Part shown: one piece after another, positions 10,519 to 58,037 of the stretch
Layout of the letters: each line of letters starts with the position of its first letter
Position numbering within the stretch: position 1 is the first letter of the stretch
IMG/VR virus record: IMGVR_UViG_3300045996_002689
Span: 1-64,000 of that record
Source of the DNA: a virus
Strand: one strand, 5' to 3'
DNA: 64,000 nt
Translations under genes and position numbers: made by a program
Notes under the pieces: generated by a model
What the model saw: the letters and a program-made list of their open reading frames with translations, nothing else
Databases searched by the model: none
What the model was told of the DNA's origin: nothing

Positions 10519-10527
10519 CTTTGCGCG
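10499..10527 (+). terminator. Stem-loop over the AAA+ stop codon
   Basis: CGCGCAAAAGC and GCTTTGCGCG pair over 10 bases with one bulged A and a TA-rich loop that contains the end of the gene. No T run follows, so it may be an attenuator or an mRNA-stabilising structure before the next promoter. Confidence 0.45.
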
Positions 10528-10529
10528 TC

Positions 10530-10574
10530 GATAGAGCGTTGGTACTTGACAGACTAACGCTCTATCGCTATACT
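10530..10574 (+). promoter_or_regulatory. Strong promoter inside an 11-bp inverted repeat
   Basis: TTGACA (10546-10551), a 17-base spacer and TATACT (10569-10574) form the best sigma-70 match in the left arm. A perfect inverted repeat, GATAGAGCGTT (10530-10540) and AACGCTCTATC (10556-10566), brackets the -35 box and fills the spacer. A dimeric repressor bound to it would shut the promoter. It drives the 437-aa gene and the two genes behind it. Confidence 0.75.
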
Positions 10575-10621
10575 TGCGTTTAGTACGGTAATTTTTTGAG
10601 AACACAGGAGAAACTAGGAAC

Positions 10622-11935
10622 ATGGAAACTTTGACTGGCAGTAACTTAGATGCTTTGCAAGTCTTGCGCGACAGGTTTGCGCGAGTAACCACCGACGTTA
10701 CATTGTCGCGTTTTGATTGGCGCGCGCTACTAGAGAGCGGTGCGGTGGCGACTTTGAGCATAGGGCGTTACCGTGGTGTAAAAGCACTCACGGCGGACGA
10801 TCTAGGGCTTGACGTCGAAGAAATGAAGGAAGTAGACAAGATTGTACAGCTAGGACACAGACTACTTCTACCACAGGATGTGTTGAACCAATTTAACACA
10901 GTCGAAACGCGTGCGCGCCAAGTGTTGCGCCAATACTGTTTGTCGACGCCCGCGGGGTTGTTTTTGCCAGCTAAGAGCAACGATAACTGCGCGAGTGCTA
11001 TGTTGGAGTTCAAGACCAAGTTTTTTGATCTTGTAGAGCTATTGGTTCAGAACCTACCGGATCACAAACGCGCGATAGAGCGTCAGTACACCGACTTAGC
11101 CAAACAGGTTTACAACCGGTTGCGCGACAGTGGCAAGTATGACTACTCGTTAGCGGAATGGGAGTTTGTAGACACCTTTGTAAACCGCTGTATGGCGCAA
11201 TTTCCAAATGAACAAGAGTTGAGACGGTCTTTCCGGTTTGCCTTGCGTTTGTCGTTTGTTCCTGTGCCCGAAACCAATGGCGAAACGCCCAGTTTTGCCA
11301 ATGCCACAGATGATTTACTCCGCCAGCGTAAGATGGTGATACAGGATACGGAAATTGCGCGGCGCGAGTTGATTGACGGTTTTATCTCCAGTATCCAATC
11401 AGAGGTCTACACGCTGGTGAATACGGTACTAACGGACGTGCTAGGCAGTATAGAGAAAAACGCGCAATTGCAATCTAGGTCGGTTGTGCAGCTTAAAAAC
11501 CTAGTCGAAAAGGTTAGTGCGCTAAATTTTTGGGGTGATAAAAGACTAGAGATGATCCAGTCGGAGATAGAATCACTCTTGAGTGTAGGCAGCAGCAAAC
11601 GCGATCTAGGCTTGAATCAACAAGTACTGCGTGAATTGCAGTTACAATCCAAAGTAGTGTTGGGCAAGCTTGAACGCGTGGAACGCGGCGACCTAGAGAT
11701 TAAGGCAGAATCGCCCAAAGTGGCATTGTCCAATGCTACAGACCAATGGCGCGGCACAATAATCAATGTATCGCGTCCCGCGCTGACTGCGAGTGAAATA
11801 GACGCCGCCAACAAAGCGGAGTATGAGCGGACAGGTAAGTTACCACAAGTCGAGATGTTTGGCGCGACTTATCAGATAGTGGAGAACAAACCGACTTTCA
11901 CACTGGGCACGTCAAGCGGACGCAAGTTGTTTTAA
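10622..11935 (+). CDS. Coiled-coil protein, AAA+ partner (weakly DUF3150-like)
   Basis: A 437-aa soluble, mostly helical protein. After a short beta region (VATLSIGRYRGVKALTADDLG, in two parts) comes a long helical body with heptad-like stretches (about 55-180 and 235-355) and a less ordered C-terminus. The arrangement of a small N-terminal domain followed by a long helical bundle recalls DUF3150 proteins, which accompany MoxR-type AAA+ ATPases in phages, but the resemblance is weak. The ribosome site is AGGAGAAACTAGGAAC. It has its own repressible promoter yet lies directly behind the AAA+ gene, so a working pair is likely. Confidence 0.6.
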   Translation: METLTGSNLDALQVLRDRFARVTTDVTLSRFDWRALLESGAVATLSIGRYRGVKALTADDLGLDVEEMKEVDKIVQLGHRLLLPQDVLNQFNTVETRARQVLRQYCLSTPAGLFLPAKSNDNCASAMLEFKTKFFDLVELLVQNLPDHKRAIERQYTDLAKQVYNRLRDSGKYDYSLAEWEFVDTFVNRCMAQFPNEQELRRSFRFALRLSFVPVPETNGETPSFANATDDLLRQRKMVIQDTEIARRELIDGFISSIQSEVYTLVNTVLTDVLGSIEKNAQLQSRSVVQLKNLVEKVSALNFWGDKRLEMIQSEIESLLSVGSSKRDLGLNQQVLRELQLQSKVVLGKLERVERGDLEIKAESPKVALSNATDQWRGTIINVSRPALTASEIDAANKAEYERTGKLPQVEMFGATYQIVENKPTFTLGTSSGRKLF

Positions 11936-20942: not shown

Positions 20943-21563
20943 TCACTTTAGCTCGATAACGATTTGCCTGCCGGTCACTGTAAATACAGGCGGTCGCTTG
21001 GCGCGTGACGGTTCGGGTTCTGGCGCAGGCGCGGGAGCCAAGGTCATGCCCTGGTTCCAGATGTAGATGGCCCTTCCTCTCGACTCGGTAGCCGCTCCCT
21101 CCAGCCCGCACCGAAAACACTTGGCGTAGACCCCCTTCTTGAGATAGGGAGGGCTTCCGCCCGTGATCACAACCAGATCGGCTTCCGCCCCGCAGCGGTG
21201 GCATGGCACCAGGGCGGTGGCGACCTGCTCTGTGTCCACCTGAAAAACTCCCCGATTGTCGTCAAAGGTCACGAACCCATCCGGCTCTGCGGTGAACACG
21301 TTGTCCTGCACGCGCAAGTCGTCCCCGATCACGGTGCCCCAGGGCGTTGTGATGGTGCTGCCCCTGTAGCCGTATACGTAGCCGCCAAGAAGCGGCATAG
21401 CGGTCGAGGGATCAATCTGTATCTGTGGCACGGCGGTGTTTTCCTGTATCCTTGTGAGCGCCTCTCGAATCGCCTGCGCTTCCTCCTGTCTCTCCCTCTG
21501 CGCCTTGTTCCACCTCTCCCGTTCCCGCGCTTGTTGCGCCCACAGGCTGTCCTTGCGTCCCAC
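20943..21563 (-). CDS. Zinc-ribbon protein with Lar-like restriction-alleviation domain
   Basis: A 206-aa protein from a GTG with AAAGGGGACAACGC upstream. Residues about 8-42 form a basic coiled helix. Residues 118-172 read PCHRCG (C121, C124), then CFRCG (C149, C152), then RAIYIWNQG, the pattern of Lar-family zinc ribbons (PCxxCG ... CxxCG ... A-x-x-x-WN). Lar proteins soften type I restriction in lambdoid phages; many distant relatives have no tested role. The first 152 bases overlap the winged-helix gene in another frame. Confidence 0.6.
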   Translation of the reverse strand: MGRKDSLWAQQARERERWNKAQRERQEEAQAIREALTRIQENTAVPQIQIDPSTAMPLLGGYVYGYRGSTITTPWGTVIGDDLRVQDNVFTAEPDGFVTFDDNRGVFQVDTEQVATALVPCHRCGAEADLVVITGGSPPYLKKGVYAKCFRCGLEGAATESRGRAIYIWNQGMTLAPAPAPEPEPSRAKRPPVFTVTGRQIVIELK

Positions 21564-22473: not shown

Positions 22474-22546
22474 GGGTGGGTAGCTCAGTCGAGATCAGAG
22501 CATCCCCTTCGGAGGAAGGTCGGTGGTTCAAGTCCATCCCCGCCCA
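22474..22546 (+). tRNA. tRNA-like gene with a short anticodon arm
   Basis: A 73-base cloverleaf. The acceptor stem GGGTGGG (22474-22480) pairs with CCCGCCC (22539-22545) with one wobble, discriminator A. The D arm is GCTC / GAGC with an 11-base loop. The T arm is GGTGG / CCATC around the canonical TTCAAGT loop. The middle has only 20 bases where about 23 are expected for position 26, anticodon arm and variable loop. Best pairing there is CCTTC / GAAGG with a 4-base GGAG loop, which leaves no 7-base anticodon loop; forcing a standard loop gives mismatches and either CGG (Pro) or TCG (Arg) as anticodon. No CCA is encoded. It has its own consensus promoter and terminator. It could be a degenerate tRNA, an integration-site remnant or a tRNA mimic. 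Confidence 0.6.
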
Positions 22547-22576
22547 CAAGTACCCTGACAGGTACACGAAGTACAA

Positions 22577-25617: not shown

Positions 25618-25650
25618 AAGAGGGGAGAAAATCTCTCCCCTCTTTTTTAT
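25618..25650. terminator. Bidirectional terminator
   Basis: A perfect 11-bp stem AAGAGGGGAGA / TCTCCCCTCTT with a 5-base loop and a T run on the right, A-rich on the left. It separates the RHH gene from the convergent integrase gene, whose last codons it reaches. Confidence 0.9.
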
Positions 25651-26501
25651 TGGAGCCAGTCCACGCTGGGCAACTCGGCGCGCTTTACATAACGTTGGGT
25701 GGTGACAATCGAGGCGTGCCCCAGAACCGCCTGCGCCTCTACGATGTTGCCCTCCGCCAGCTTGGTCGCCACATAGCGGCGGAAGTCGTGGGGCGATGCG
25801 TCTATGCCCATCTTGCGGGCCGCTTCCACCACGACATTGTATGCGCCCTGGGTGGTGATGGGTTTGTCGACGGCGCGCATGCTGCGTCCTGCAAAGCTGT
25901 TGAAGAGCCAGGCGCTTGCGATCTCGCGCGCAAAAAGCCAGGCGGTCAAATTAACCTCCGTGACCTGGGCGACCGGTACCGCCCGCGGGCGAATGTCGGT
26001 TTTTCCCTGCACGTAGATCACACGCTCAGGGATGCGCCACTGGTCGCCGCGTAGTCCACACAATTCTTCAATGCGCACACCCGATGTCGCAAGCAGACAC
26101 AGCATCGCCTTATCGCGTAAACCCTTGGGGGTAGAAGTGTCGATGTTGTCGATGATCTCCTGCACGGCGATGTCGTCAAGCGGCACATTGCCCTTGCGCA
26201 GCCTGTCGCGCAGCGCGCGCACGCTCACCGAAGCAATGGCGCGCACCTGCGTGTAAAGCTCCACAGAAACGCTGCCAGCGGCCACAGAAGCCGCAAAGAT
26301 GCTCTTGATGGCAGATAGGGCGCTGTTGATGGTATTGGGGCTGTAGCGGGCTTCCACAAGGCTTGTGCGCCACGCCAGCACGCTCCCCGAACTCCACAGC
26401 GGCAAGTTGCTACTTACGCAGAAGTCCTCGTACTCGCGCCACGCCTTCTCATAGAGCGTAAGCGTCCTCTCCGAAACGGTGCCAAGCAACAGTTCTCTCA
26501 T
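25647..26501 (-). CDS. int: Tyrosine recombinase (phage integrase)
   Basis: A 284-aa protein from the ATG at 26501, which has AGGAACTAGGG upstream; a longer frame to 26567 runs into the promoter. The N-terminal SAM-like core-binding domain (RTLTLYEKAWREYEDFC) is followed by the catalytic domain: Arg in SGVRIEELCGL, Lys in GKTDIRPRAVPV, HxxR in PHDFRRYVATKL, the second His in LGHASI and the Tyr in TTQRYV. All five active-site residues are present, so it should be active. It integrates and, with partners, excises the phage. No excisionase is recognised nearby; one of the small HTH or RHH proteins could serve. Confidence 0.92.
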   Translation of the reverse strand: MRELLLGTVSERTLTLYEKAWREYEDFCVSSNLPLWSSGSVLAWRTSLVEARYSPNTINSALSAIKSIFAASVAAGSVSVELYTQVRAIASVSVRALRDRLRKGNVPLDDIAVQEIIDNIDTSTPKGLRDKAMLCLLATSGVRIEELCGLRGDQWRIPERVIYVQGKTDIRPRAVPVAQVTEVNLTAWLFAREIASAWLFNSFAGRSMRAVDKPITTQGAYNVVVEAARKMGIDASPHDFRRYVATKLAEGNIVEAQAVLGHASIVTTQRYVKRAELPSVDWLQ

Positions 26502-26517
26502 CCCTAGTTCCTTTCTG

Positions 26518-26567
26518 TGTATCAATAACTGATACATGAAGTATATCACATGCACGCCCCTTGTCAA
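26518..26567 (-). promoter_or_regulatory. Integrase promoter with operator palindrome
   Basis: On the minus strand TTGACA (26567-26562), a 16-base spacer and TATACT (26545-26540), then the inverted repeat TGTATCA-N5-TGATACA (26518-26536) over the transcription start. A dimer bound there would repress int. Confidence 0.75.
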
Positions 26568-27249: not shown

Positions 27250-27901
27250 GCCGAGACGCACCAATGGCTTCCAGCCTGGCTGGAAGAAAAAGGCCGCAAA
27301 GCCTGTCGAAGCCACACCCCTTGACGCCCTGGAGAATATCGACTTTGAGCGCGAGAACCTCTATGCGCTGCCCCAAATTGACCTGAAAGTAGACGGCACC
27401 AAAGTACAGGTCGAGCGCCTTGTCCTTACCGCCGAGCTTGTGGCGGTGGCGATCTACGAAGCCAGAGGCATGTTGTCGGTGGCGGCAAGAAAGCTGGGCA
27501 CAAGCAGCCGCGTGGTCAAGAGCTTTATCCGCGAGTCCGACCTGTGCGCCGCCGCCGTCGAAGAGGCCAACGAGATGCTGCTTGACTTTGCCGAGGCAAA
27601 GTTATACCAGAAGATCAAGGCCGGAGACATTGCCTCGATTATTTTTTACCTGCGCACGCGCGGCAAGATGCGCGGCTACACCGAGAAACCCAACGAAAAA
27701 GACGAAGAGATGCGGCGCAAACAGGAAGAGTCGCGCCTGGATGCGCAGGAGAGCGCCAACCGCCTCAAGCTCAGGCTGGAGGAAGTGCGCCAACGCATCA
27801 CGGCGGCAACCGCCGACATAGACATCTACCCTACGGACATAGAGACAGACGATGACGATACGGGACAGGCAGATTACGAGATCGACGCTCAAGACGCTTG
27901 A
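27224..27901 (+). CDS. Terminase small subunit (TerS-like)
   Basis: A 225-aa protein from a GTG after GGAGAAAACTGGC. A basic N-terminus (about 1-28) is followed by a helix-turn-helix (EARGMLSVAARKLGTSSRVV, about 79-98) and then LLDFAEAKLYQKIKAGDIAS and IIFYLRTRGKMRGY, the typical TerS pattern. The C-terminus is a charged coiled coil ending in an acidic tail. TerS binds the packaging site on phage DNA and loads TerL. It overlaps the TerL gene by 50 bases. Confidence 0.8.
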   Translation: MAAEPKKSKPRRTNGFQPGWKKKAAKPVEATPLDALENIDFERENLYALPQIDLKVDGTKVQVERLVLTAELVAVAIYEARGMLSVAARKLGTSSRVVKSFIRESDLCAAAVEEANEMLLDFAEAKLYQKIKAGDIASIIFYLRTRGKMRGYTEKPNEKDEEMRRKQEESRLDAQESANRLKLRLEEVRQRITAATADIDIYPTDIETDDDDTGQADYEIDAQDA

Positions 27902-29267
27902 GGCGCGTATCGTCCAGGCGCGACCGCAGATGGCGGCGCGCCCTTTGAGCATGGCGGAGCAAATCTCGATGCTGCCCGATGGCGAGCGCGAGGAAACGCT
28001 GGCGATGCTTGCGCCCACACCGGAGGACTTGCGTTTGCTGGAGTACTCCTGGGACTTTTGGGCGCGCCCCAACCAAAAAGAACCGGAAGGCAACTGGAAC
28101 ACCTGGCTGTTGATGAGCGGCAGAGGTTTTGGCAAGACCAGGGTGGGGGCGGAGGCGGTGATCAAACGCGCGCAGATGTACCCGCGCTACGCCATCGCGC
28201 TGATCGGGCAGACCAAAGCCGACGTGCGCGACACGATGGCGGAGGTCTTTGAGTCCAGCATTATGAAAATCTCGCCGCCGTGGTTTATGCCCAGGCTGGA
28301 AACCACCAAGCGGCGCTTGACCTGGCCCAATGGCGCACAGGCGATCATGTACTCAGGCGACGAACCAGACCAGTTGCGCGGCCCACAACACGGCTTTGGC
28401 TGGCTGGACGAAGTTGCCAAGTTCAAGTACCCGCAGGAAACCTGGAGCAATTTTAGTTTGGGGCTGCGCCTTGGCCCCAACCCGCAATGTATTATCACGA
28501 CAACGCCAAGGGCCATACCCCTCATCAAGGAGCTAAACAGCGACCCTGCCGTCATCAAGACCGTGGGCAGCACCTATGAGAATGTGGGCAACTTGCCGCA
28601 AAGTTTTATCCGCACAATTTTAAGCCGTTACGAGGGCACGCGCCTGGGAGCGCAGGAAATCTACGGCAGTATCTTGGGCGATGTCGATGGCGCGCTGTGG
28701 AACCGCGACACCCTAGAGCGCGTGCGCGTGGTCAAGATACCGGAGATGGTGCGCATCGTGGTGGCGGTCGATCCTTCCACGGGGGGCAGCGCATCGGGCG
28801 GCACGGCAGAGACAGGCATTGTCATTGCAGGCATCGGCACCGATGGGCATTGTTACATCCTGGAGGATGCCAGCCTCAACACCAACAAGCCCGAACGTTG
28901 GGGAGCGCAGGCGGTTGCCGCCTACAACCGCTATGGAGCCGACCGCATTGTGTGCGAGGTCAACCAGGGCGGCGAGATGGTCAGGTCTACCCTGCACACG
29001 ATTGACGACAAGCTCCCCATCACGATGGTTCATGCCTCAAAAGGCAAATACACGCGCGCCGAGCCGGTCAGTTCGCTCTACAGCCAGGGGCGCGTGCATC
29101 ACTTGGGCATGTTTGCCGACCTAGAAGATCAGTTGTGCAGTTGGGTACCAGGGGAGCCGAGTCCCGATAGGTTAGACGCCCTTGTGTGGGCAGTTACCGA
29201 AGTCCTGATCCGCGGCTACGGCGGCATGGACATAGAAACGCTCGCATCGGTCTTTAACTACCTGTAG
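27852..29267 (+). CDS. Terminase large subunit
   Basis: A 471-aa protein with both terminase activities. ATPase: Walker A GRGFGKT (90-96), Walker B GFGWLDE (181-187), coupling motif TTTPR (216-220). Nuclease: first acidic residue in AVDPS (305-309), then CEVNQGG and the C-terminal DRLDALVWAV. It drives ATP-dependent DNA packaging into proheads and cuts the concatemer. The length is normal. The start at 27852 overlaps TerS; a later Met at residue 27 is possible. It places the late operon in standard order. Confidence 0.95.
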   Translation: MTIRDRQITRSTLKTLEARIVQARPQMAARPLSMAEQISMLPDGEREETLAMLAPTPEDLRLLEYSWDFWARPNQKEPEGNWNTWLLMSGRGFGKTRVGAEAVIKRAQMYPRYAIALIGQTKADVRDTMAEVFESSIMKISPPWFMPRLETTKRRLTWPNGAQAIMYSGDEPDQLRGPQHGFGWLDEVAKFKYPQETWSNFSLGLRLGPNPQCIITTTPRAIPLIKELNSDPAVIKTVGSTYENVGNLPQSFIRTILSRYEGTRLGAQEIYGSILGDVDGALWNRDTLERVRVVKIPEMVRIVVAVDPSTGGSASGGTAETGIVIAGIGTDGHCYILEDASLNTNKPERWGAQAVAAYNRYGADRIVCEVNQGGEMVRSTLHTIDDKLPITMVHASKGKYTRAEPVSSLYSQGRVHHLGMFADLEDQLCSWVPGEPSPDRLDALVWAVTEVLIRGYGGMDIETLASVFNYL

Positions 29268-32780: not shown

Positions 32781-33854
32781 ATGTCCACAACAATTTGGGG
32801 TTTACTGCAAGTCTCCGACGCCAATACTCCGGTACAGACGGTCGGGCAGCAGTTGACGTTTGAAGCGATCAACCGCTTCGCCGCCCGCCACAACACCAAT
32901 GTAGGCAATATCATCCGTCGTTTTGTCGATGACACCACGACCGATATTGAAACCTACTACGAGACGCCAGGCGGCGGTATGATGCAGGAAACCAACCGTC
33001 TGAGCCGCCCTGGGGCTGTCAAGACCTACGGGCGCTACAACGTCGGTTTCCCCATTCGCGATGCTCGCGACCAGATCGCAGGCGACGATATTACCTTCGC
33101 CTACTTGACGCTTGCCCAACTCCAGCGCCAAGTGACCAACATCTTTATCCGCCACTTAAATTGGGTGCGCTTCCACATCCTGCGCGCTTTGTTCAACAAC
33201 GCCAACGAGACTTTCTTTGACGAGTTCCTGCAAAGGGAGATCACGGTGCGCCGCTTGGCGAACACGGACGGCACGATCTATGCGCCCAATCTCAACGCCG
33301 AAACCGGCACGGACGACAACCACTATCTTGTCAGTGGCTATCTGTCGTCCGCCATCTCCAACACCAACAATCCCTTTATCACGCTGCGCGATGAGATCAC
33401 CGAGCATAGCGGCGACGGCAACATCGTCGTCTTTATCAATCCGGCTCAGAGCGCCGTGGTCAAGGCATTGGCCGATTTTGTCGGCTACACCGACCCCATG
33501 ATCCGCCTGCCAACCGACTCTACGGTGATCACCGGCGCGGCCCCTGATGGGCTACCTGGCACCGTGATCGGGCGCGTGTCGAGCGTGTGGGTTGTCGAAT
33601 GGACAACCATTCCTGCCGACTACATGGTGGCGCTTGACATCTCGCAGCCGCCGCCCTTGCGCAAGCGCATTGACATCGCCACCAACATCCAGGGGCGCGG
33701 TCAACTGGCGCTTATCGCCCGCCAGCAGGAGTTCCCGCTGGAAGAGAGCTTCTGGCGCGACCGCCACGGCTATGGCGTGGGCAACCGCCTGGGGACTGCG
33801 ATCATGCAGTTCAAGGCATCGGGCACCTACGACATTCCCGCGGCCTACGCATAG
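32781..33854 (+). CDS. Major capsid protein
   Basis: A 357-aa protein with no Cys-rich or membrane parts, right after scaffold and decoration genes and before a terminator. Long helix and beta pattern consistent with the HK97 fold: N-terminal arm (about 1-60), spine-helix-like region (TLAQLQRQVTNIFIRHLNWV, about 111-130), and a C-terminal domain with MVALDISQPPPLRKRID. No cleaved delta domain is apparent, as expected with a separate scaffold. The call rests on order, size and stop at a strong terminator. Confidence 0.85.
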   Translation: MSTTIWGLLQVSDANTPVQTVGQQLTFEAINRFAARHNTNVGNIIRRFVDDTTTDIETYYETPGGGMMQETNRLSRPGAVKTYGRYNVGFPIRDARDQIAGDDITFAYLTLAQLQRQVTNIFIRHLNWVRFHILRALFNNANETFFDEFLQREITVRRLANTDGTIYAPNLNAETGTDDNHYLVSGYLSSAISNTNNPFITLRDEITEHSGDGNIVVFINPAQSAVVKALADFVGYTDPMIRLPTDSTVITGAAPDGLPGTVIGRVSSVWVVEWTTIPADYMVALDISQPPPLRKRIDIATNIQGRGQLALIARQQEFPLEESFWRDRHGYGVGNRLGTAIMQFKASGTYDIPAAYA

Positions 33855-47736: not shown

Positions 47737-50700
47737 ATGTCAGAGGTGCTGACCAGGGCCATCAAGCGCACCCTGCAAAACGAATACAGGCGCAGCGTGC
47801 AAAAGCGTAGCGGCGTGCGCAAAGCCAGCATCAGCGCGGGCGCATCAGGCCGCGGCGCGGTGGTTGCCGCAGGACAGGTCTTTCCTGCCAGCAACATCAA
47901 CGCCACCGCAGGCGCGACTGTGGCCGTGCGCAATGTCGGGCGCATCGCCAATGCCCTCTACCAGCCGGACACCTCTTCTAGCCTTGTCTACAACATCGGC
48001 ACGCCTATCACCATCACGGGAGAGGGCGGCGGCGGGGGCGGCAGCACCCTGAGCGCGGGCGACGGCATCAGCATTGTGAGCAATGTGATCTCTGTCAACG
48101 TGCCCGCTATCATCGACAGCGCCAGGGCCATCTCCGTGACGGCAGGCAACCTGGGCCTCCAACTCAATGCCAACAGCGGTCTGCGCTATGGCAGCGGCGG
48201 CGGGCTGGAGATGGGCACGCTGGGCACAATTGCCTGGGACAGCCAGTCTATTATTTCAGGCACCAGCCACAACCACGCCATCGCAACCGTAGAGGATGCA
48301 GGGGCCAACGTCTCGCCCGTGCGCTCAATCTTGCGATCTTCAAGCTCAGGACACCTTGGACTTGGCGCACTAAGTTTAGGCGGCAACCTCACTTTTATTG
48401 ATACCGGCGGCGTAGGGCGCAGCATCGTTGGTACCACGGATTTGACCATTGCCAATGCGGGCGACTTGACCCTCAACCCCAACGGTAATGTTTACACACC
48501 AAACTCCCAGGAGGTGCGCGCCACCCTGATCCAAGACCTACCCACGGGCATCCTGGGCTACCGGCTGTGGGCGCGCCCTGAGTACCCCAACTACCAGCAA
48601 CTCACCATCGGCGCAATCAAGGCCGACGAGTTGTATGTGCGCGTCTTTGTAGCCGACGAGACGCGCATCGACCGCGGCGAAGAGTACTGGAGCAAGAGCT
48701 TTGGCCTGGTGCAGACGGACTTCGCCCTGCCCGCCATCGGCTCCACCGTCGACGTGTGGTTTGAAGATGCACCCGCCGCGATTGGCTTTAACCTCTTCTC
48801 CAATGGCGACTACCTGCTCATGCGCACGATTGATTGGGGCACGGGTTTGGTGGTGCAGAAAATCTGGTGGCAGGTTGCCGCCGCCAAGCTCGCCCAGGAA
48901 ACCACGGCCGCAAACGGCGTAGACAGGCAACGTTGGCGTATCCGGCGCATTGCGGGCGGAAGTACCACGGGTATCATCAAACGTGGCTCCTTGGCGCTTG
49001 ACGTGGGCGTGGTGGGGCAAGGGTGGATACATCTCAGCGCCCTCGATCAGGACGGCGGGCCTTTTATCCAGATCGGGGAGATGACCAGTGTTGCCACGGT
49101 GCCGCAGTTTGCCAACCGCGTGCGCATGGGAAACCTCAACGGCGTGGTGGGGATCAGCGAAGATTTTTGGGGCTTTGCGGCAGGCAACGAGCTTGGCCTG
49201 GGCATCACCCCCACCAGCGGCTTTAGTGGTTTTGTAGCAGGCAAGGCACCCGCCAGCGCAAGCGCCGCTACCAAAGCCTATGATGGCATGACGCTCTTCA
49301 ACACTGACCTGCGCCTCTACAGCGGGGCGAGCCAGGTGCTTGCCCTCTCGCGCCAGGATGGGCTGGTGATGAAGATCGACCCCACCCAGCAGGCAACGGC
49401 CTACCCGCAGATCAGGTGGTCGGACACGGTGCCCTACAGCAACGAGCGCGCTTTAATCACCGCCTGGGGCGTGACCGCTCGCACCGACATGATCTCCTTG
49501 GTCAGGAACCAGGCCGCGGGTGGGGTGGCGCACATGCAGATCGCCGCCACATCGCTGACGCAACTGGCGACCCTGCACCTGGACAGCTTCCCCTATGCCA
49601 GCCTCACCACGGCGCTAAGTGGCAACAACCCCTCTTTTGTGGTGAGCGGCAACTTTGTCGGCGTTGGCTTTAACCCGCCAACGTTAATGCCCGCCTCGCG
49701 TCTGCATGTCTACGAGAGCAACGCCAACACCAATGAAGCGGTGGGGGTGCTGATCGAGCAGGCCAGCACGGGAGACGCCGTGCTGCATTGGAAGTTGACC
49801 ACGGGCGGCAGGGTATTTAGCGCAGGCATTGATAATTCGGCGGGCGACGTGTGGAAGTTGTCGGCCAATTCGTCTTTGGGTGTGACTGACTTTATCGTGG
49901 TAGACCCAACCACCGGTGTTGTCACCATCAATGGCCTTAGCGGGGGAAGCTCATCGTCGGGACTAATCGCCGGTGATGGCATTGACATCGCAGGCTCCAC
50001 CATCAGCGTGGACACGACAGTGGCGCGCTCAGGTTGGCTGGTCAACGCGGGCAACGGACTGTCAGGCGGCGGCGGTTTGGTGGCGGGCGGCATCACGCTT
50101 GATATTGTCGGGGTAGTAGGAGGGGGCATCAGCGTCAACGCCAACAGCATCGGCGTGGACAACACCGTCGTGCGCACGACTCAGCAGGTGATCGCAGGCA
50201 ATGGGCTGGCAGGCGGCGGCGCGCTCACGGGCAACGTCACGCTTGATATTGGCGGGGGCAACGGCATTACCGTACTAGCCAACAGCATCGAAGCCAAGCC
50301 CCACCCCGCGGGCGGCTTAAATGTGGACGGCGCTGGCCTCTACATCGACCCCTCGTTTGTGGGCGGGGGCTTGGCGCTCTCGCCTACCTGGGTAGCCTCT
50401 GTGGGCGCGGGCAACGGCATCAGCGTGTTGGCCGACAGCATCGAGATCAAGTTGCTCTCGCCCTTTGCGGGCCTTACCGTGGACTCGCTGGGGTTGCGCG
50501 TGCGCGATGACATCGCGGGCAACGGCCTGCTTATGTCTAGCTCTAAGATCATCGACCTGGTGGCGGGCAACGGCTCGCTGACCGTGGGGGCCGACAACGT
50601 AGTAGTGAACTATGCGCACAACTGGCCGTGGACGGGCGACCATACCTTTAGCACGGGAACGGTAAGGTTTAACACCACGCCCCAGGTCAACGCCAACTTG

Positions 50701-53700
50701 AACTTCCTGGGCGTGCGCAACATCACCTCCAATGACACCCTGGGCATCTCGCCCACAGGCGACCTGTGGATAACCCCCAGCGACCTGGTTGTCCTGCCCA
50801 TCGCCAAGGAACTGCGCAGCGAGCTTTTTAATGACCTGCCTACCGGCATCGACGGCATGCGTCTCTTTAACTCCGCCGCCAACCACAAGAACCTGACGCT
50901 GCACGGCATCAAGGCCGACGAGCTTTATGTCAGGGTTTTTGTGGCCGACGAGACACGCATTGATAGGGGGGAAGAGTACTGGAGCAAGAGCTTTGGCCTT
51001 GTCGAAGAGGAATCTCCTGGGCTACCTCCCCTTGGCTCCACCTTCGACGTGTGGCTTGAGGACGCGCCAGGCGTCGGGCCATTTGCGCTCTTTACGGCAG
51101 GGGATTACATCCTGGTGCGCACGATTGACTGGAGCGTTGGCCTTGTCGTGATGATGGTATGGTTGCAGGTGGTTGACGGCGGCGGCGCGGGCGGCGACTG
51201 GATTTTACGCGATGACGCCAACGACCGCCAGAAGTGGCGCTTGCGGCGTCTCGGCGGCGGCAGCGTAGGCTACACCTTTAAGAAGGGCACGCTCCTATTG
51301 GATGTGGGCACGCTGGGTCAGGGCTGGATACACCTGTCGGCGCTTGAGCAGGACGGCGGGCCATTTATCCAGGTGGGCGACATGACCAGCCTGCTGGGTG
51401 GCATCCCGCAATTTACCAACCGCGTGCGCATGGGCAACCTGAGCGGTACAGTGGGCATCGCTGAGGACTTTTGGGGCTTTGCCGCAGGCAATAACCTGGG
51501 AAGGCTCCCCAGCGATGTCGCCAATCCCTTTAGCGGCATTGTCGCAGGCAGGTCGAGTTCGGGAACGCATCCCTACGATGGCATGGCGCTCTTCAACGTT
51601 GACCTGGAGATGTATAGCGGCGGCTCGCTCATGGCAAGGTTTAACAACACCACGGGGCTGACGCTTGACTTTGACATTGCGCCGGACGCTACCGTGGGCC
51701 GCTTTATCCGCTGGCAGGATGACCCGCGTGTTCACGACCCCAACTCCAACGCCCGCATCGGCGCGTGGAAGGATGTCAACACGGGGCGCAATCGCCTGGG
51801 CTTGCTCGCCATCGATCCGGCAGGCAACCCGATCATCGACAGCTACATCGAGAACAACACCAGCGGGCAGACTGCCACTACCTACTTCTCGCTGGACGAG
51901 TATCGCATGGACTTCTTTAGCGGCGGCGGATCGTTCCGTGTTCTCAGCGACGGCAAAACACTTATCGGGGGAATATCGTCGCCCGACCCGCTCTCAAGGC
52001 TTCATGTTTACGACAATAACTCCGAGACAGGGATCGCCGCAGGACTACTCATCGAGCAGGATGGCGCGGGCGGCGATGCGGTCTTACATTGGCGCTTGAC
52101 CGATGAGGCCAACTGGTCGGCTGGCATCGACAACGACGCCTCAAACGGCTGGAAGCTCTCTAACTCCACGACGCTGGGCACCAACCCGATTATCTCCGCC
52201 GCCACATCCGGTTTTGTGGGCATCAGCGCCGCTCTGCCCGAAGTCTCCTTGGATGTGCGTGGGGACAGCGCCATTCGCCACCGTCTCGCCAGCGTCACCG
52301 CGGGCGGCGTTTATGTGCAGAGCATCCTGCACGGTTCTTCCCTGGACTTTGCGCGTGTCTCTTTTGCCCACAATGCCCGCTACGATCCCGCCACGCGCAC
52401 CTGGATCACGGAGTTTACGGGGGGTAGCGATGCTTCGGCCATGATCGTGCGCAACGGCGGCGGCTTTGACTGGATCATCCACCCCAGCGCGACAAGTCCT
52501 ATGAGCAATACCAGCTTCATGGGCGGCAGGCGCATGGCGCTCTCGCCTGGGGCGGAGCTTCGCGTGGGCTTGTCGCTCAAGGTGGGCGATGCGGCTCTGA
52601 ATGTGGCGTCCTCCATCCTTCACGTTTATGAGAATAACTCCAACACGGGCACGGCGGCAGGCGCAACCATCGAGCAGGCGGGCGGCGGCGATGCGCTCTT
52701 GAGATTTTTGGTCTTGGGACAGGGCTGGACAACTGGCATCGACAACACCGACAAAGCCTATAAGATTACCGCAGGAACGGTAAACATCGACATCAACCCC
52801 GTACTGACCCTCACCACAGGGCGCAGCGCGGGCATCAACACGCCCGCTCCTGGACTCAACATCGTCGGCTCGTTTGACTACAACCCAGGCAATGTTTTGC
52901 AGATCAATTCCACAGGCGGCGCATCGGTGATCGTGCATGGCGACAACGGTTCGACCGTGGACATGGTGACTATCGCCAATGCTCCCAACGAGCGGTGGTT
53001 CCGTTATGGGCTATTTGGCGGCGGCAAAACCAACTACCAGAGCATCAACGACACAGGCGCAATTGTCCACCAGTTTATGACGCTTGACCACACCACAGGC
53101 TACATCGGTCTTGACGAGGTAAACCCAGGAGCCAAGCTGGAGATTGCCAGCCAAACCGACGCTATCATCCAGCCCGCGGTGCGCGCCGTGGTTTATGGCA
53201 GCGGAGCCTATCACTTTATGGGCAGGCGCGCGCTCAACACGCAGGGAGTCCCTGTTGCCGTGACCAGCGGGCAGACCCTCCTTTCGATTGGCGCTCAGGG
53301 TTATCTAAACAACGGCACATGGCCCAGCAGCACGGTCGCCGCCTCACTACATGCGGTTGCCGCGCAGACCCACAGCCCGACCGCACAGGGAGCCAAGTGG
53401 CAATTCTTTGTCACCAAGATCAATACCACGACCACATCCGTGGCGCTTGACCTGGGCGATGACCGCCAGTTCTTTGCCCCTGGGGTGGACAGCCACGTCA
53501 CCGCCGCCGCCCCCAATGTCAATGTCGAAACCGGCACGGGAAGCGGCTGGCTCAGACGCTCGACCAGCAGCCGTCTCTACAAACGCGACATTCGCGATCT
53601 CAACCCCGACGCCAAATTTATTGACAAGCTGCGTCCCGTGTTGTACAGACCGCGCACCGATGTGGGCGGCGGCAACCGTGATTTTGTCGGGCTAATCGCA

Positions 53701-53856
53701 GAGGAAGTAGTAGACGCAGGCGGCAGGGACTACGTGTTCTTTGGAGAGAAAGACCAGCCGGAGGGTGTGATGTACGACAGGTTGGTGGTGGTCGCCATCT
53801 CCGAGTTGCAGTCCTTACGGCGCAGGGTCAGCGAGCTTGAAGCCCGTCTGAATTAA
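47737..53856 (+). CDS. 2039-aa tail fibre with internal duplication and S74 chaperone
   Basis: The longest gene. It has a helical N-terminal tip (about 1-35) for hub binding, Gly-rich beta repeats (GDGISIVSNVISVNVPA type), a module at about 290-500 repeated at about 1055-1275 (both contain KADELYVRVFVADETRIDRG and EDFWGFAAGN), and spacer repeats like AGNGLSGGGGLVAGGITLDI. The last about 100 residues form an intramolecular chaperone of peptidase family S74: SSRLYKRDI, LRPVLYRP, VGLIAEEV, a YDRL and a C-terminal coiled coil. Ser about 1945 and Lys about 1949 have the i, i+4 spacing of the self-cleaving dyad. It is the main receptor-binding fibre. Confidence 0.85.
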   Translation: MSEVLTRAIKRTLQNEYRRSVQKRSGVRKASISAGASGRGAVVAAGQVFPASNINATAGATVAVRNVGRIANALYQPDTSSSLVYNIGTPITITGEGGGGGGSTLSAGDGISIVSNVISVNVPAIIDSARAISVTAGNLGLQLNANSGLRYGSGGGLEMGTLGTIAWDSQSIISGTSHNHAIATVEDAGANVSPVRSILRSSSSGHLGLGALSLGGNLTFIDTGGVGRSIVGTTDLTIANAGDLTLNPNGNVYTPNSQEVRATLIQDLPTGILGYRLWARPEYPNYQQLTIGAIKADELYVRVFVADETRIDRGEEYWSKSFGLVQTDFALPAIGSTVDVWFEDAPAAIGFNLFSNGDYLLMRTIDWGTGLVVQKIWWQVAAAKLAQETTAANGVDRQRWRIRRIAGGSTTGIIKRGSLALDVGVVGQGWIHLSALDQDGGPFIQIGEMTSVATVPQFANRVRMGNLNGVVGISEDFWGFAAGNELGLGITPTSGFSGFVAGKAPASASAATKAYDGMTLFNTDLRLYSGASQVLALSRQDGLVMKIDPTQQATAYPQIRWSDTVPYSNERALITAWGVTARTDMISLVRNQAAGGVAHMQIAATSLTQLATLHLDSFPYASLTTALSGNNPSFVVSGNFVGVGFNPPTLMPASRLHVYESNANTNEAVGVLIEQASTGDAVLHWKLTTGGRVFSAGIDNSAGDVWKLSANSSLGVTDFIVVDPTTGVVTINGLSGGSSSSGLIAGDGIDIAGSTISVDTTVARSGWLVNAGNGLSGGGGLVAGGITLDIVGVVGGGISVNANSIGVDNTVVRTTQQVIAGNGLAGGGALTGNVTLDIGGGNGITVLANSIEAKPHPAGGLNVDGAGLYIDPSFVGGGLALSPTWVASVGAGNGISVLADSIEIKLLSPFAGLTVDSLGLRVRDDIAGNGLLMSSSKIIDLVAGNGSLTVGADNVVVNYAHNWPWTGDHTFSTGTVRFNTTPQVNANLNFLGVRNITSNDTLGISPTGDLWITPSDLVVLPIAKELRSELFNDLPTGIDGMRLFNSAANHKNLTLHGIKADELYVRVFVADETRIDRGEEYWSKSFGLVEEESPGLPPLGSTFDVWLEDAPGVGPFALFTAGDYILVRTIDWSVGLVVMMVWLQVVDGGGAGGDWILRDDANDRQKWRLRRLGGGSVGYTFKKGTLLLDVGTLGQGWIHLSALEQDGGPFIQVGDMTSLLGGIPQFTNRVRMGNLSGTVGIAEDFWGFAAGNNLGRLPSDVANPFSGIVAGRSSSGTHPYDGMALFNVDLEMYSGGSLMARFNNTTGLTLDFDIAPDATVGRFIRWQDDPRVHDPNSNARIGAWKDVNTGRNRLGLLAIDPAGNPIIDSYIENNTSGQTATTYFSLDEYRMDFFSGGGSFRVLSDGKTLIGGISSPDPLSRLHVYDNNSETGIAAGLLIEQDGAGGDAVLHWRLTDEANWSAGIDNDASNGWKLSNSTTLGTNPIISAATSGFVGISAALPEVSLDVRGDSAIRHRLASVTAGGVYVQSILHGSSLDFARVSFAHNARYDPATRTWITEFTGGSDASAMIVRNGGGFDWIIHPSATSPMSNTSFMGGRRMALSPGAELRVGLSLKVGDAALNVASSILHVYENNSNTGTAAGATIEQAGGGDALLRFLVLGQGWTTGIDNTDKAYKITAGTVNIDINPVLTLTTGRSAGINTPAPGLNIVGSFDYNPGNVLQINSTGGASVIVHGDNGSTVDMVTIANAPNERWFRYGLFGGGKTNYQSINDTGAIVHQFMTLDHTTGYIGLDEVNPGAKLEIASQTDAIIQPAVRAVVYGSGAYHFMGRRALNTQGVPVAVTSGQTLLSIGAQGYLNNGTWPSSTVAASLHAVAAQTHSPTAQGAKWQFFVTKINTTTTSVALDLGDDRQFFAPGVDSHVTAAAPNVNVETGTGSGWLRRSTSSRLYKRDIRDLNPDAKFIDKLRPVLYRPRTDVGGGNRDFVGLIAEEVVDAGGRDYVFFGEKDQPEGVMYDRLVVVAISELQSLRRRVSELEARLN

Positions 53857-53876
53857 AATCTGGGTTGTGTTATAGT
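53848..53876 (+). promoter_or_regulatory. Possible separate promoter before the CHAT cluster
   Basis: CTGAAT (53848-53853), a 17-base spacer and TATAGT (53871-53876) overlap the end of the fibre gene and precede the ATG at 53892. The -10 is good, the -35 weak. It could let the following genes be expressed apart from the late operon, as in morons. Confidence 0.4.
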
Positions 53877-53891
53877 TAGCGAGGTAAGTCC

Positions 53892-54203
53892 ATGAGACAA
53901 AATCACCAAAGCCGCAAGCAAGCCAGGAGAGATAAAATGGCCGAACAAGAAGTCAAGAAAACAACCCGCAATTTTAGCGAAGATATTGTCACCGAGAAGA
54001 TCAAGGGTTTTCGCCAAGGGCTGCTGGAGATGCGCGAGCAACGCAACGCCTACCAGGAAGCCATAGATGACCTAGAGACACGCATCGCACGCACAGAAGG
54101 GGCGCTATTGGCGCTACAAGAACTGGTGCAGCCCACCGAGTCGCAAATGGCGCAGCTACCGCCCGCGCCCGTGATCGAGGCCAATGGAGATAAGCAAGAG
54201 TAA
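53892..54203 (+). CDS. Small coiled-coil protein with two good starts
   Basis: A 103-aa protein. The ATG at 53892 has GAGGTAAGTCC and a second in-frame ATG at 53937 has AGGAGAGATAAA, so two forms may be made. Residues about 40-80 form a coiled coil (MREQRNAYQEAIDDLETRIA), and the tail is Pro/Glu-rich. It sits two bases before the CHAT gene and may be its partner or a tail chaperone. Confidence 0.55.
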   Translation: MRQNHQSRKQARRDKMAEQEVKKTTRNFSEDIVTEKIKGFRQGLLEMREQRNAYQEAIDDLETRIARTEGALLALQELVQPTESQMAQLPPAPVIEANGDKQE

Positions 54204-54205
54204 AA

Positions 54206-55045
54206 GTGCCTTTTTACAGATCGCTTGTGGTCGCACCCAGGACGCCGCAACTGCCCGCGCTGCAATACTCTGAACGAGAGGCGGCGGCGGTTGTCAGCGC
54301 GCTCAAGGCGAGCTTGCTCCAGGGAGAGGTCACAGGCGATCAGTTGATCACCGAGTTGCAGAAGGGTTATGACATCGTGTGGTTCATCACGCACGGCGAC
54401 GAAAACGGCATCGCCCTGACCAATGAGTTTATTACTGCATCTCAACTGACGCAGGCTGTTCGATCCAGCCGCGCTAAACTTATTGTGCTAAACACATGCA
54501 GCAGCCACAAGGTTGCCGCCAGAATCCACAACGAGTTGCGCACGTATTTGATATGCACGCTGCGGGATGTGCTAGACCAAAATGCCTACTACACGGGGAG
54601 ACTGTTGGCGGCGGCGCTAGGCGGGGGAGCAACCTTCCGCGCCGCCTTTAATGCGGCAATCCCAGGAGGCAACGAGGACTACCTGTACTTTCCTGGCGAT
54701 TTCGAGGAACAGGGCGCTATGTCACCCCCACCGCTAAGAGATACGCCGCCCAGCGGCGCAGGCACACCCGTAACCCAAGAGGATTTGCGCGAGATGCTGG
54801 AGCGCATCGACGCCATTGTCTTTGGGAGCGCACGCTGGCAGATTGTCGGGCTGGTCGAGTCCAACCGCATTTTAGGCGAGAAGGTGCAGGTACTCACGCG
54901 CGAGCTTGACACCACCAAGGCGGAGATGAAACTAACGCGCGAAACCATCCGCACGCTCAAGATATGGCTGATCCTGATCTCGGTCTTGTCGGTGCTGATG
55001 CTGGTGGCGCTCTTTATCCAGACCTTCCGGCCAGGAGGTGCATAG
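54206..55045 (+). CDS. CHAT-type caspase-like protease with coiled coil and membrane anchor
   Basis: A 279-aa protein from a GTG. Residues about 1-165 form a caspase-like CHAT domain: YSEREAAAVVSALKAS start, IVWFITHGDENGIAL with catalytic His63, LIVLNTCSS with catalytic Cys98, and YYTGRLLAAALGGGATFRAA with the closing helix. A Pro-rich linker (about 172-190) leads to a coiled coil (about 190-250) and one membrane helix (252-272) at the very C-terminus, so the protease faces the cytoplasm. CHAT proteases act in bacterial defence and programmed death, for example in TPR-CHAT and gasdermin systems. Its place between fibre and lysis genes is typical of prophage cargo. A defence or superinfection-exclusion role is inference. 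Confidence 0.8.
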   Translation: MPFYRSLVVAPRTPQLPALQYSEREAAAVVSALKASLLQGEVTGDQLITELQKGYDIVWFITHGDENGIALTNEFITASQLTQAVRSSRAKLIVLNTCSSHKVAARIHNELRTYLICTLRDVLDQNAYYTGRLLAAALGGGATFRAAFNAAIPGGNEDYLYFPGDFEEQGAMSPPPLRDTPPSGAGTPVTQEDLREMLERIDAIVFGSARWQIVGLVESNRILGEKVQVLTRELDTTKAEMKLTRETIRTLKIWLILISVLSVLMLVALFIQTFRPGGA

Positions 55046-55555
55046 ATGTCACCCCTACGATCTCTTGTCCAGGCAGGGCACGCAAGCGCCGCCTTTTTGC
55101 GCCAGTTCGTCTACATCGTCGCCCTGGCATTGGTGTTGGTCGCCGCCATCATTGCCGCCGCCTGGGTTTATCGGGCCTGCTGTAACGTCCCCCCCATCCA
55201 GATCGAGATGCTGGACGCCCCCTCTCGCCAATACTGCCCTGGGGACACCATCAACTCGCGTGTCCGCGTGACCATCACGGCAACTACCCTGCGCTATATG
55301 TACCGCAGCGTCATGGACGAAGGCGAGAACTACAGCTTCTTTGGCACAGAAGAGAGTGTGCCGCCCTCCAACCAGCCGCGTCCCACCATCTATGTCTTTT
55401 CGTGGCCGTGGACGGTGCCCGATCTGCCGCCTGGCACCTACCACCTGGTCACGGGCGGACGCGGGCACGAAACCGACGAGTTGCCGGTGAGCGACAGCGT
55501 TGACTTTATCATCAAAACGGGATGCCCTCCCCTAGAAGGGCAGGAGAAACAATGA
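55046..55555 (+). CDS. Membrane-anchored extracytoplasmic beta-sandwich protein
   Basis: A 169-aa protein whose ATG touches the stop of the CHAT gene. An N-terminal membrane helix (about 21-43, VYIVALALVLVAAIIAAAWV) is followed by a Cys-Cys and an Ig-like beta domain (about 50-155) with PPGTYHLVTGG. It would hang outside the membrane. The tight coupling suggests it works with the CHAT protein, for example as its outer sensor; this is inference. Confidence 0.65.
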   Translation: MSPLRSLVQAGHASAAFLRQFVYIVALALVLVAAIIAAAWVYRACCNVPPIQIEMLDAPSRQYCPGDTINSRVRVTITATTLRYMYRSVMDEGENYSFFGTEESVPPSNQPRPTIYVFSWPWTVPDLPPGTYHLVTGGRGHETDELPVSDSVDFIIKTGCPPLEGQEKQ

Positions 55556-55902
55556 AAACCGACTGGACAAAAGACGTGAGGTTGCCAGGCATCCTGTATG
55601 TGGTGATCCTGGTGGGCGGCACCTGGTACGCCGAGAACTACCTGAGCGACCCCAGGTGGCTGGAGGCCATTCTTTTGGTTGCGCCGATCATCGGCAAGAT
55701 CATCTTTCCAGGCACGGGCCAGATGGAAGGCGTGCTGAACTTAGCCAAACAAATTTTGTCCGTGCTGCCGCCTGCGCCGCGCCATGTGCGTGTGGCACCT
55801 GGGGAGAGCGCCCCGCCCACCCTGCAACCCTCCGTGGGCGTAGACTCGCGCGATATCGAGAAGCTCAAACCTAACAAGGTCGCTCGCATGTTTTTGGGGT
55901 AG
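55552..55902 (+). CDS. Membrane protein, holin-like
   Basis: A 116-aa protein starting at the ATG that overlaps the previous stop, with GGGCAGGAGAAACA upstream. Two hydrophobic segments (about 12-30, GILYVVILVGGTWYAENYL, and 36-54) and a hydrophilic C-terminus fit a class II holin or a holin partner. It lies two genes before the endolysin. Confidence 0.6.
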   Translation: MKTDWTKDVRLPGILYVVILVGGTWYAENYLSDPRWLEAILLVAPIIGKIIFPGTGQMEGVLNLAKQILSVLPPAPRHVRVAPGESAPPTLQPSVGVDSRDIEKLKPNKVARMFLG

Positions 55903-55920: not shown

Positions 55921-56124
55921 ATGGACGGACTCTTTGGGTTTTTGGTAGGGCTGATTGTCTTTCTGATTGTCGCGGCACTCCTGTGGAAGGCGTTGGAGAA
56001 AATCCTGGGCAAGTTTGCCTTAGATGCCGACATCAAGACCTGGATACAGGTCATCGTGCTGGTTGTGATCGCGCTGGCGATCTGGTACTACTTTGGGCAT
56101 TACGTGGGGTTGCCCCCTCGATGA
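55921..56124 (+). CDS. Small two-span membrane protein, probable holin
   Basis: A 67-aa protein with helices at about 3-24 (LFGFLVGLIVFLIVAALLW) and 41-60 (WIQVIVLVVIALAIWYYFG), separated by a charged loop with KALEKILGKF. Size, topology and a four-base overlap with the endolysin gene fit a holin that releases the lysin or collapses the membrane potential. Confidence 0.7.
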   Translation: MDGLFGFLVGLIVFLIVAALLWKALEKILGKFALDADIKTWIQVIVLVVIALAIWYYFGHYVGLPPR

Positions 56125-58037
56125 GCAAATTCCTGCACGGCATCCATGACCCAGGCGGGGAACACCTGATGCGCGAGGCTCCAGGCTGGATCGTCCACAC
56201 GGTCGCTTTGCGCGAGGTGGGAGGCTTTGACTTTACCCCGTGGTCGCGCCAGGGTTTTACTAACATCTGCCGCATCAATTGGGGCTACCACCCGCATGGC
56301 ACCATCCCCACCAACACCGACAGCTATGTGGCTTTCGCCAGGCGCGTGCGCGACTTTATCCGCAACGCTCCAGGCTGTGACTTGTTTATCCTGGGCAACG
56401 AACCCAACCACGAAATCGAGCGACCGGACGGCGTGCTGATCTCGCCGCACGACTATGCGCTCTGTTTTAACACCGCCTATGCCACCGTCAAGAGCGAACT
56501 GAGGCAGGCGCAGTTGGGGGTGGCGGCGATTGCGCCCTGGAACCAGCAGTCGGGCGACTGGCTGGACTACTGGCGCGCCATGCTGGTGCTGATAGGCGAG
56601 TGCGACTTCTTGACGCTGCACGCCTACACGCACGGCGTTGACCCCCAGCTTGTCGAGTCAAACCAGATGGTCAACGGCTGGCTGTGGCACTTCCCTGTTT
56701 TTACGCAGATGCTTGCCAACGTGCCCCCCAAGTTCATCGCCAAGCCTGCCCACATCACCGAGGCCGACCAGGACGCGGAGTGGGCGAATGTCAATTCCGG
56801 CTGGATACAACGCGCCTGCGCTTTTGTGGACAACCACAATAAAAAGGCGGGCACTCAAAAAGTTTTCTCGATAAGTTTTTACCGCTGGCAGACCCACAAC
56901 CATGACAAGTGGCACTTCAACGATAAGCCTGGAGTGCAGGAGGATTTCAAGCAGGCGGTCGCCGCCAGGTTTATGTCGCCGCCGCCCCTTGCCGCCCCCA
57001 TCCACCCCACCACAATTGTCCTGCCCGACATCCGAAAGGAGCCAACCCCTATGCCGCCCTCATCTGTCTTGGCCCGCACCCTGACGCCCGCAGCCGACGC
57101 CCACGGCATGCGCGTGGTGACACCTGCGCTCAACCCAGGGCAGGAGTTCTGGTACGCCGAGTATGTGGACAAGCTCAACAAAGACCAGTCCGGTGGACGC
57201 CGCCACATCTACGGCAATGTCACCGACAAAAACGGCAACCGCCTGCACGGAGTGCGCCTGCGCGTCTCCTGGGAGAATGGCAACAAAGAGGCTTTTGTCG
57301 TGACCGAGGACAAGTCCAGGGACTTGCCGCCCTGGAGCTTTGATTATAATTTTCCTCTTAGCTCGTCCCTCAACGACTTTGCCATCGAGGTGGCCCAGGA
57401 TCGCCCCTCCGAGAAAGTCACCGGCATTGGCATGGGCATAAACGGCAACCCAGGCGAGCATACGGTTAGCGTGGTAAATTTTACCCTGGAGAACTATCCA
57501 GGGAGCGCAACCCCTGTTCCTGTGCCGGTCACGCCTGTACCTGTTCCTGTGACCCCCACACCCGTTCCGGTCACACCCGCCAATACGCTGATCATCCTGC
57601 CTGTCACCGGCATTGTCACCCAACGCTGGGGTGAGAACCCGCAGAACTATGCGCGTTTTGGCATCCCTGGGCACAACGGGCTGGACATCGGCGCGCCCGC
57701 AGGCAAGGCTGTCCATGCCATCGCCAACGGCACCGTGGCCTTTGCGGGGGAGGACAGCGACTACGGCAACTACGTGCGCATCCACCACCCGCACCTGGGC
57801 TTTGATTCCTTCTATGCCCACCTCCTGACCATTGACACCGCCATCGGCAAGCCCGTGTCGCAAGGAGAAAAGATTGGCACGGTCGGCTCGACCGGTAACT
57901 CCAGCGGCCCGCACCTGCACTTAGAGACGCGCCTGACGCGCCAGATGGACAACTACATCGTGTTGTCGGGTGGCTATGGCAAGGGGCGTTTTGATCCTGC
58001 AATTGCCTATTGGCTTTTGAACCGCCAAGTGGTATAG
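56121..58037 (+). CDS. Endolysin: GH-A glycosidase-like domain plus M23 peptidase
   Basis: A 638-aa protein from the ATG overlapping the holin stop. Residues about 1-285 look like a clan GH-A TIM barrel: FILGNEPNHE with the acid/base Glu94, and HITEAD with the nucleophile Glu214. About 330-470 is a beta-sandwich (NVTDKNGNRLHGVRLRVSWE). A Pro/Val/Thr linker (about 474-495) precedes an M23 peptidase: His518 and Asp522 in HNGLDIGAP, and the HLH pair at 598-600. The two catalytic domains would cut the glycan and the peptide of the cell wall. No signal peptide is present, so release depends on the holin. Confidence 0.8.
   Translation: MSKFLHGIHDPGGEHLMREAPGWIVHTVALREVGGFDFTPWSRQGFTNICRINWGYHPHGTIPTNTDSYVAFARRVRDFIRNAPGCDLFILGNEPNHEIERPDGVLISPHDYALCFNTAYATVKSELRQAQLGVAAIAPWNQQSGDWLDYWRAMLVLIGECDFLTLHAYTHGVDPQLVESNQMVNGWLWHFPVFTQMLANVPPKFIAKPAHITEADQDAEWANVNSGWIQRACAFVDNHNKKAGTQKVFSISFYRWQTHNHDKWHFNDKPGVQEDFKQAVAARFMSPPPLAAPIHPTTIVLPDIRKEPTPMPPSSVLARTLTPAADAHGMRVVTPALNPGQEFWYAEYVDKLNKDQSGGRRHIYGNVTDKNGNRLHGVRLRVSWENGNKEAFVVTEDKSRDLPPWSFDYNFPLSSSLNDFAIEVAQDRPSEKVTGIGMGINGNPGEHTVSVVNFTLENYPGSATPVPVPVTPVPVPVTPTPVPVTPANTLIILPVTGIVTQRWGENPQNYARFGIPGHNGLDIGAPAGKAVHAIANGTVAFAGEDSDYGNYVRIHHPHLGFDSFYAHLLTIDTAIGKPVSQGEKIGTVGSTGNSSGPHLHLETRLTRQMDNYIVLSGGYGKGRFDPAIAYWLLNRQVV

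Follow-up and report, generated by a model that had tools for sequence, protein, structure and literature searches.

What a caspase-like protease gene does for a phage that carries it between its fibre and lysis genes is the question raised by this locus. CHAT proteases, which are caspase-like, are executors of bacterial immunity and cell death. The initial annotation described a membrane-anchored CHAT protease with an outer partner protein, carried like a prophage moron, and proposed for it superinfection exclusion or abortive infection, with lysis timing mentioned in passing.

The phage genome

The window, that is, the whole stretch of DNA that was analysed (64,000 nucleotides), covers nearly all of a virus record of 64,483 bases in total. 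The virus is a tailed, temperate phage, with the following marker genes:

25647-26567, minus strand, tyrosine integrase
27852-29267, terminase
32781-33854, major head protein
at 62062, DnaB helicase

The virion genes on the plus strand extend from about 26.6 kb up to the lysin at 58.0 kb. The genome is mosaic, as the best terminase relatives (about 55-60%) and the best head-protein relative (58%) belong to different phages. The latter phage, G024 (IMGVR_UViG_3300009156_000005), is the one most closely related to that of the window, with 58% identity in the major head protein, 43% in the tail protein, and a syntenic fibre and lysin. From the style of the proteins we suspect a host in the Chloroflexota. 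Terminase scans matched phages and many alphaproteobacterial loci, probably gene-transfer-agent-like ones, and did not point to a host. A tRNA-Arg (TCG) at 22474-22547 on the plus strand was set aside as an attachment site for host inference because a promoter-like TTGACA...TATAAT lies upstream; it resembles an expressed phage tRNA and not an attachment remnant.

Some other genes were recorded in passing. At 8785-11935, the gene of a 577-aa AAA ATPase precedes that of a 437-aa DUF3150 protein; their counterparts in G024 have 58% and 45% identity, respectively. The 206-aa protein at 20943-21563 on the minus strand matched Lar, a restriction alleviation protein, below the threshold (23.2 bits versus 28.6, E 8e-5). 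The fibre at 47737-53856 has 2039 aa with internal repeats, its G024 homologue has 2618 aa, and its C-terminus matches a chaperone-like S74 domain just under the cut-off (E 6e-4).

A caspase-like CHAT protein with a C-terminal membrane anchor

The features of the CHAT gene are as follows; homologues were found in two further phages, G062 (IMGVR_UViG_3300042696_000074) and G002 (IMGVR_UViG_3300029156_000004).

54206-55045, plus strand, CHAT-domain (caspase-like) protein, 279 aa, tail-anchored (PF12770, fold match, homologues in G062 and G002)
54392-54394, plus strand, codon of putative catalytic His63 (ITHGDENG), opposite the GHG His of 8TL0, kept in G062 and replaced in G002
54497-54499, plus strand, codon of putative catalytic Cys98 (LNTCSS), opposite the NAC Cys of 8TL0, present in each of the three homologues
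54836-54943, plus strand, long helix or presumed coiled coil, about residues 211-246 (AlphaFold2 helix 211-274, pLDDT about 40-60 before residue 250)
54944-55021, plus strand, C-terminal membrane helix, about residues 247-272 (hydropathy peak 3.0, positive residues on its N side)

The open reading frame is a real gene with a GTG start, which is backed by the aligned N-termini of the homologues (MPFYRSLVVAP / MANYRTLVVAP / MKRRILVIAP). From the N-terminus, the protein consists of a CHAT domain, a helical stretch and a membrane anchor. Residues 16-102 matched the Pfam CHAT family PF12770 with an E-value of 2.1e-9 and 37.7 bits, against a curated cut-off of 24, and the G062 homologue also scored above this cut-off (E 6.8e-8, 32.7 bits).

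The protein was modelled with AlphaFold2 and subjected to a fold search. The model, built from only three sequences, was of moderate quality (mean pLDDT 62), with pLDDT values of about 70-88 across most of the N-terminal core. In the Foldseek search, the top match was the SAVED-CHAT protease 8TL0 (E 7.8e-9, probability 1.0), and Csx29, procaspases, gingipain and legumain followed lower and more weakly, as expected of the caspase-like CHAT fold that had been read from the sequence. A profile of the three homologues also detected 8TL0 at the sequence level (E 0.0028), placing His63 and Cys98 opposite its GHG and NAC motifs, and in the model the two residues lie at the ends of adjacent strands (57-65 and 92-97). 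The CHAT domain with His63 and Cys98 is thus confirmed by the PF12770 match and the alignment with 8TL0, and a caspase-like protein is supported by profile, motif and predicted fold. Matches to ADP-ribosyltransferases obtained with phmmer were dismissed as chance, since they were gone with the profile.

Between the window and G062, 12 of 16 residues are identical in the His motif (residues 55-70) and 9 of 14 in the Cys motif (90-103), together 21/30, compared to about 40% identity overall; the count falls to 20/59 across the linker plus coiled coil and to 7/33 for the anchor. Such a distribution is what a constraint on an active site would look like, which does not by itself prove activity.

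The C-terminal third is modelled as a long, low-confidence helix continuing into the membrane helix, and this single helix (211-274) fits the coiled coil and C-terminal anchor annotated at the outset. A C-terminal membrane helix is likewise present in G062 (hydropathy peak 2.9) and G002 (2.3). The positive charges on the N side of the helix suggest that the CHAT domain is cytosolic.

Two viral proteins in BFVD also matched the model. A0A1P8DJ94 (UniProt), with 25% identity over nearly the full length (E 3e-13), is likely a fourth homologue, and A0A8S5MXG5 from Myoviridae sp. ctWaE18 (E 9.6e-5, 11% identity) is possibly another phage caspase-like protein, judging from the modelled fold.

A membrane-anchored beta-sandwich partner

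55046-55555, plus strand, membrane-anchored beta-sandwich protein (Ig/FnIII-like), 169 aa, domain presumed outside the cell (model, G062 homologue)

The ATG of this gene directly abuts the stop codon of the CHAT gene, with zero gap and a strong Shine-Dalgarno-like AGGAGG ahead. Its model (pLDDT 76) has one N-terminal membrane helix (helix 4-46) and a seven-stranded beta-sandwich, so the proposed coupling of the CHAT gene to an anchored beta-sandwich protein holds, with the outside location presumed. The family profile searches returned no match for the gene, and the fold matches were generic FnIII/Ig-like domains and carbohydrate-binding modules, which say little on function. In both the window and G062, a Cys (CPG) marks the start of the partner's domain and a second one lies near the C-terminus; the two would fit a disulfide formed outside the cell.

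Genes and signals around the pair

The pair is placed inside a co-directional late run, between the fibre and the following lysis genes:

53892-54203, plus strand, small coiled-coil gene, likely start near 53937 (MAEQEV...), weak homologue in G024
55552-55902, plus strand, 116-aa hydrophobic protein with a charged C-tail, holin-like in appearance only
55921-56124, plus strand, 67-aa protein with two membrane helices by hydropathy, holin candidate (weak SPP1-holin match, E 0.04, below the cut-off)
56121-58037, plus strand, glycosidase-like and M23 peptidase lysin, 638 aa (PF01551, E 2e-26; PHROG endolysin, E 1e-21; homologues in G024 and G062)

The small coiled-coil gene had been counted with the pair. 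It is present at 53892, but G024, which lacks the pair, has a homologue at the same place after the fibre (L088:12104-12442; 37% over 38 aa, E 5e-4), so we dropped it from the CHAT module and assign it to the phage backbone. The 116-aa gene overlaps the beta-sandwich gene by ATGA, and its product had no Pfam match above the cut-off and no PHROG match.

A promoter had been suspected at 53848, where no sigma-70-like site was found. Our scan, limited to sigma-70-type sites, gave three sites in the 6.3-kb region versus 1.9 in shuffled sequences, none of them dedicated to the pair. No terminator of the pair's own was found, and terminator-like sites were near chance level. As had been noted, the CHAT protein and the adjoining genes contain no TPR, SAVED, NLR or gasdermin domain, and PADLOC gave no meaningful match at the locus, just a weak domain-level one to BovA (E 0.016).

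Distribution of the pair in other phages

Between fibre and lysin, G024 has the coiled-coil gene, a 139-aa gene and a 70-aa gene; neither a CHAT nor a beta-sandwich gene was found at this locus or by a search of its whole record. The G062 CHAT protein (259 aa, anchored) is about 40% identical over its full length (E 2.8e-48) and keeps both His and Cys. It is directly followed by a beta-sandwich protein (170 aa, 33% identity, E 1e-24). Next come a hydrophobic protein of 95 aa and a lysin of glycosidase-like/M23/SLT type, so that the order of CHAT, beta-sandwich, small hydrophobic gene(s) and M23 lysin is common to both phages. After the lysin, G062 has a small-terminase-like gene and, beyond it, the genes for terminase, portal and head. 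No similarity to the window was detected in its portal or major head protein, and its terminase belongs mainly to other families, with phrog_2 and phrog_38 common to both. The small-terminase-like proteins (30%, E 4e-9) and tape measures (29%, E 4e-18) are still weakly similar, which means that the two phages are mosaics and not wholly unrelated.

G002, whose terminase is 55% identical, has a CHAT homologue of 193 aa (L084:15488-16069, minus strand; E 2.9e-8) that keeps the anchor and the Cys and has Gly at the His position. A beta-sandwich gene is absent from G002, where a few small genes separate the CHAT gene from an M23+SH3 lysin downstream. Of these three phages, G062 thus has the full pair, G002 CHAT alone and G024 neither gene. 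The pair is mobile and a unit, as both genes occur in the same order in two phages; it is an accessory, as G024 is without it; and it goes with the holin/lysin end of the late genes, a linkage that is present in the window and G062, looser in G002 and absent in G024.

G062 was one of four matches to a degenerate DNA motif of the His region, and the other three were not CHAT-like. The CHAT protein, the tail protein and the lysin gave nothing in word-based scans of viral contigs and genomes; because the viral and genome collections were scanned by short exact motifs only, a failure to find the pair elsewhere carries little weight. When phages and plasmids were searched at the protein level with the window CHAT protein, nothing was found either, and caspase/CHAT genes of plasmids appeared as weak, domain-only matches. 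Profile searches without a positive control found no homologue in 395 genomes from the phylum to which a Bacteroidetes MAG (G065) belongs, or in 398 from that of G066.

Possible roles of the pair

We tentatively favour a role in lysis, in which the two genes would form a membrane module of the lysis region, a tethered protease with its sensor, that tunes lysis or brings it to completion. The pair would be made late in infection, along with holin and lysin. The CHAT domain would lie in the cytosol and the beta-sandwich outside, joined via their membrane helices. The pair would sense an envelope event, such as holin triggering, wall damage or another phage, and sensing would release proteolysis at the inner membrane face. 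Lysis timing would thereby be adjusted, or the cell finished off so that it does not interfere with virion release. Recurrence upstream of a holin-like gene and the same type of lysin, in two phages whose packaging genes largely differ, points to lysis and argues against a free-standing moron. The abutting and ATGA junctions, the failure to find a promoter of its own, the stronger conservation of the His and Cys motifs, the lysin not far downstream of the G002 copy, and the tail anchor of all three homologues (window, G062 and G002) are consistent with this role. However, with no more than two full copies found, the pair could have become linked to the lysin by chance, as a hitch-hiker; lysis can do without the pair, since G024 has a lysin and no pair; and the G002 copy, without the His and the beta-sandwich partner, argues that proteolysis is not universal. 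The lysis timing raised in passing by the initial annotation thus gains from the recurrence with the lysin in G062 and loses from the lysin without the pair in G024.

The main alternative is expression of the pair in the lysogen; on detection of an incoming phage by the outer domain, the tethered CHAT protease would kill the cell or stop the infection. The phage is temperate, the CHAT proteases known so far serve as immune effectors (with SAVED-CHAT 8TL0 and Csx29 8EEY as the nearest folds), the architecture resembles that of a sensor and effector, and the absence of the pair from G024 is as expected of cargo. The failure to find a dedicated promoter weakens this reading, and no terminator was found either for a pair that lies inside a late run; the recurrence with the lysin in G062 despite different packaging genes and the PADLOC result also tell against it. 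The prophage-moron description accordingly fits the temperate lifestyle and the empty place in G024 but not the failure to find transcription signals of its own, and nothing specific supports superinfection exclusion or abortive infection, which we regard as rather unlikely. Since the pair is a unit, an accessory and tied to the lysin end of the late genes, we prefer a lysis-linked module over a lysogen-expressed defence moron; the preference is moderate, two full copies being few.

A protease made during infection might instead cleave a host immune, stress or membrane protein. The intact dyad in the best-conserved motifs of a phage-borne protein would suit such anti-defence or host take-over, as would a membrane location for membrane-acting host targets, but the pair is placed among late and lysis genes, not early ones, and an extracytoplasmic partner would be needless for a cytosolic counter-defence protease, which makes this role distinctly unlikely. 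That the CHAT domain is mainly a binding scaffold (a pseudo-enzyme, or a structural or holin-regulating module), with a function other than proteolysis, is brought to mind by the G002 homologue, which lost the His yet keeps the fold motifs and the anchor; given this loss, some phages may use the domain for something other than proteolysis. As both copies paired with a beta-sandwich retain His and Cys in their best-conserved motifs, we think it improbable for the pair itself. Recent capture of a host immune gene with no phage role appears highly improbable: CHAT domains are common in cellular genomes and plasmid genes gave the weak matches mentioned above, but three phage homologues at 22-41% identity point to long residence in phages, and no close cellular relative was found in the collections searched.

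Relation to known systems and significance

The protein shares the CHAT fold and the aligned His and Cys motifs with SAVED-CHAT of type III CRISPR signalling (PDB 8TL0), but it has no SAVED cyclic-nucleotide sensor and no CRISPR genes, and is tail-anchored with a membrane partner. The caspase-like CHAT fold is also that of Craspase TPR-CHAT/Csx29 (PDB 8EEY), whereas the window protein comes from a phage, is tethered to the membrane and has neither TPR repeats nor Cas7-11. A small CHAT protease and a partner gene at the membrane are likewise the arrangement in the bacterial CHAT-gasdermin pairs, but the partner in the window is not a gasdermin pore; it is an anchored beta-sandwich, presumably on the outer side of the cell. 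In T4 lysis inhibition, RI and RIII act on the holin from outside and inside the membrane, respectively. This is an analogy only; RI and RIII are not proteases, and no sequence relation to the pair is claimed.

The searchable literature, mostly without subscription papers and preprints, contained no mention of a phage-encoded CHAT protease or of CHAT in a lysis cassette. The pair may be a new, putative protease accessory of phage lysis. It is a compact testable system, and a tail-anchored CHAT protein followed by an anchored beta-sandwich provides a signature for finding more. It is conceivable, if somewhat doubtful, that phages carry a caspase-like protease as a lysis component of their own, with a tail-anchored CHAT protein and an extracytoplasmic sensor acting across the membrane to time or complete lysis. 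Such a role, if true, would run opposite to the immune function for which CHAT proteases are known. If a phage family keeps a CHAT domain with intact catalytic residues tethered beside its holin and endolysin, this protease class would have been turned to the phage's own ends, conceivably lysis tuning, exclusion of rivals or disarming of the host.
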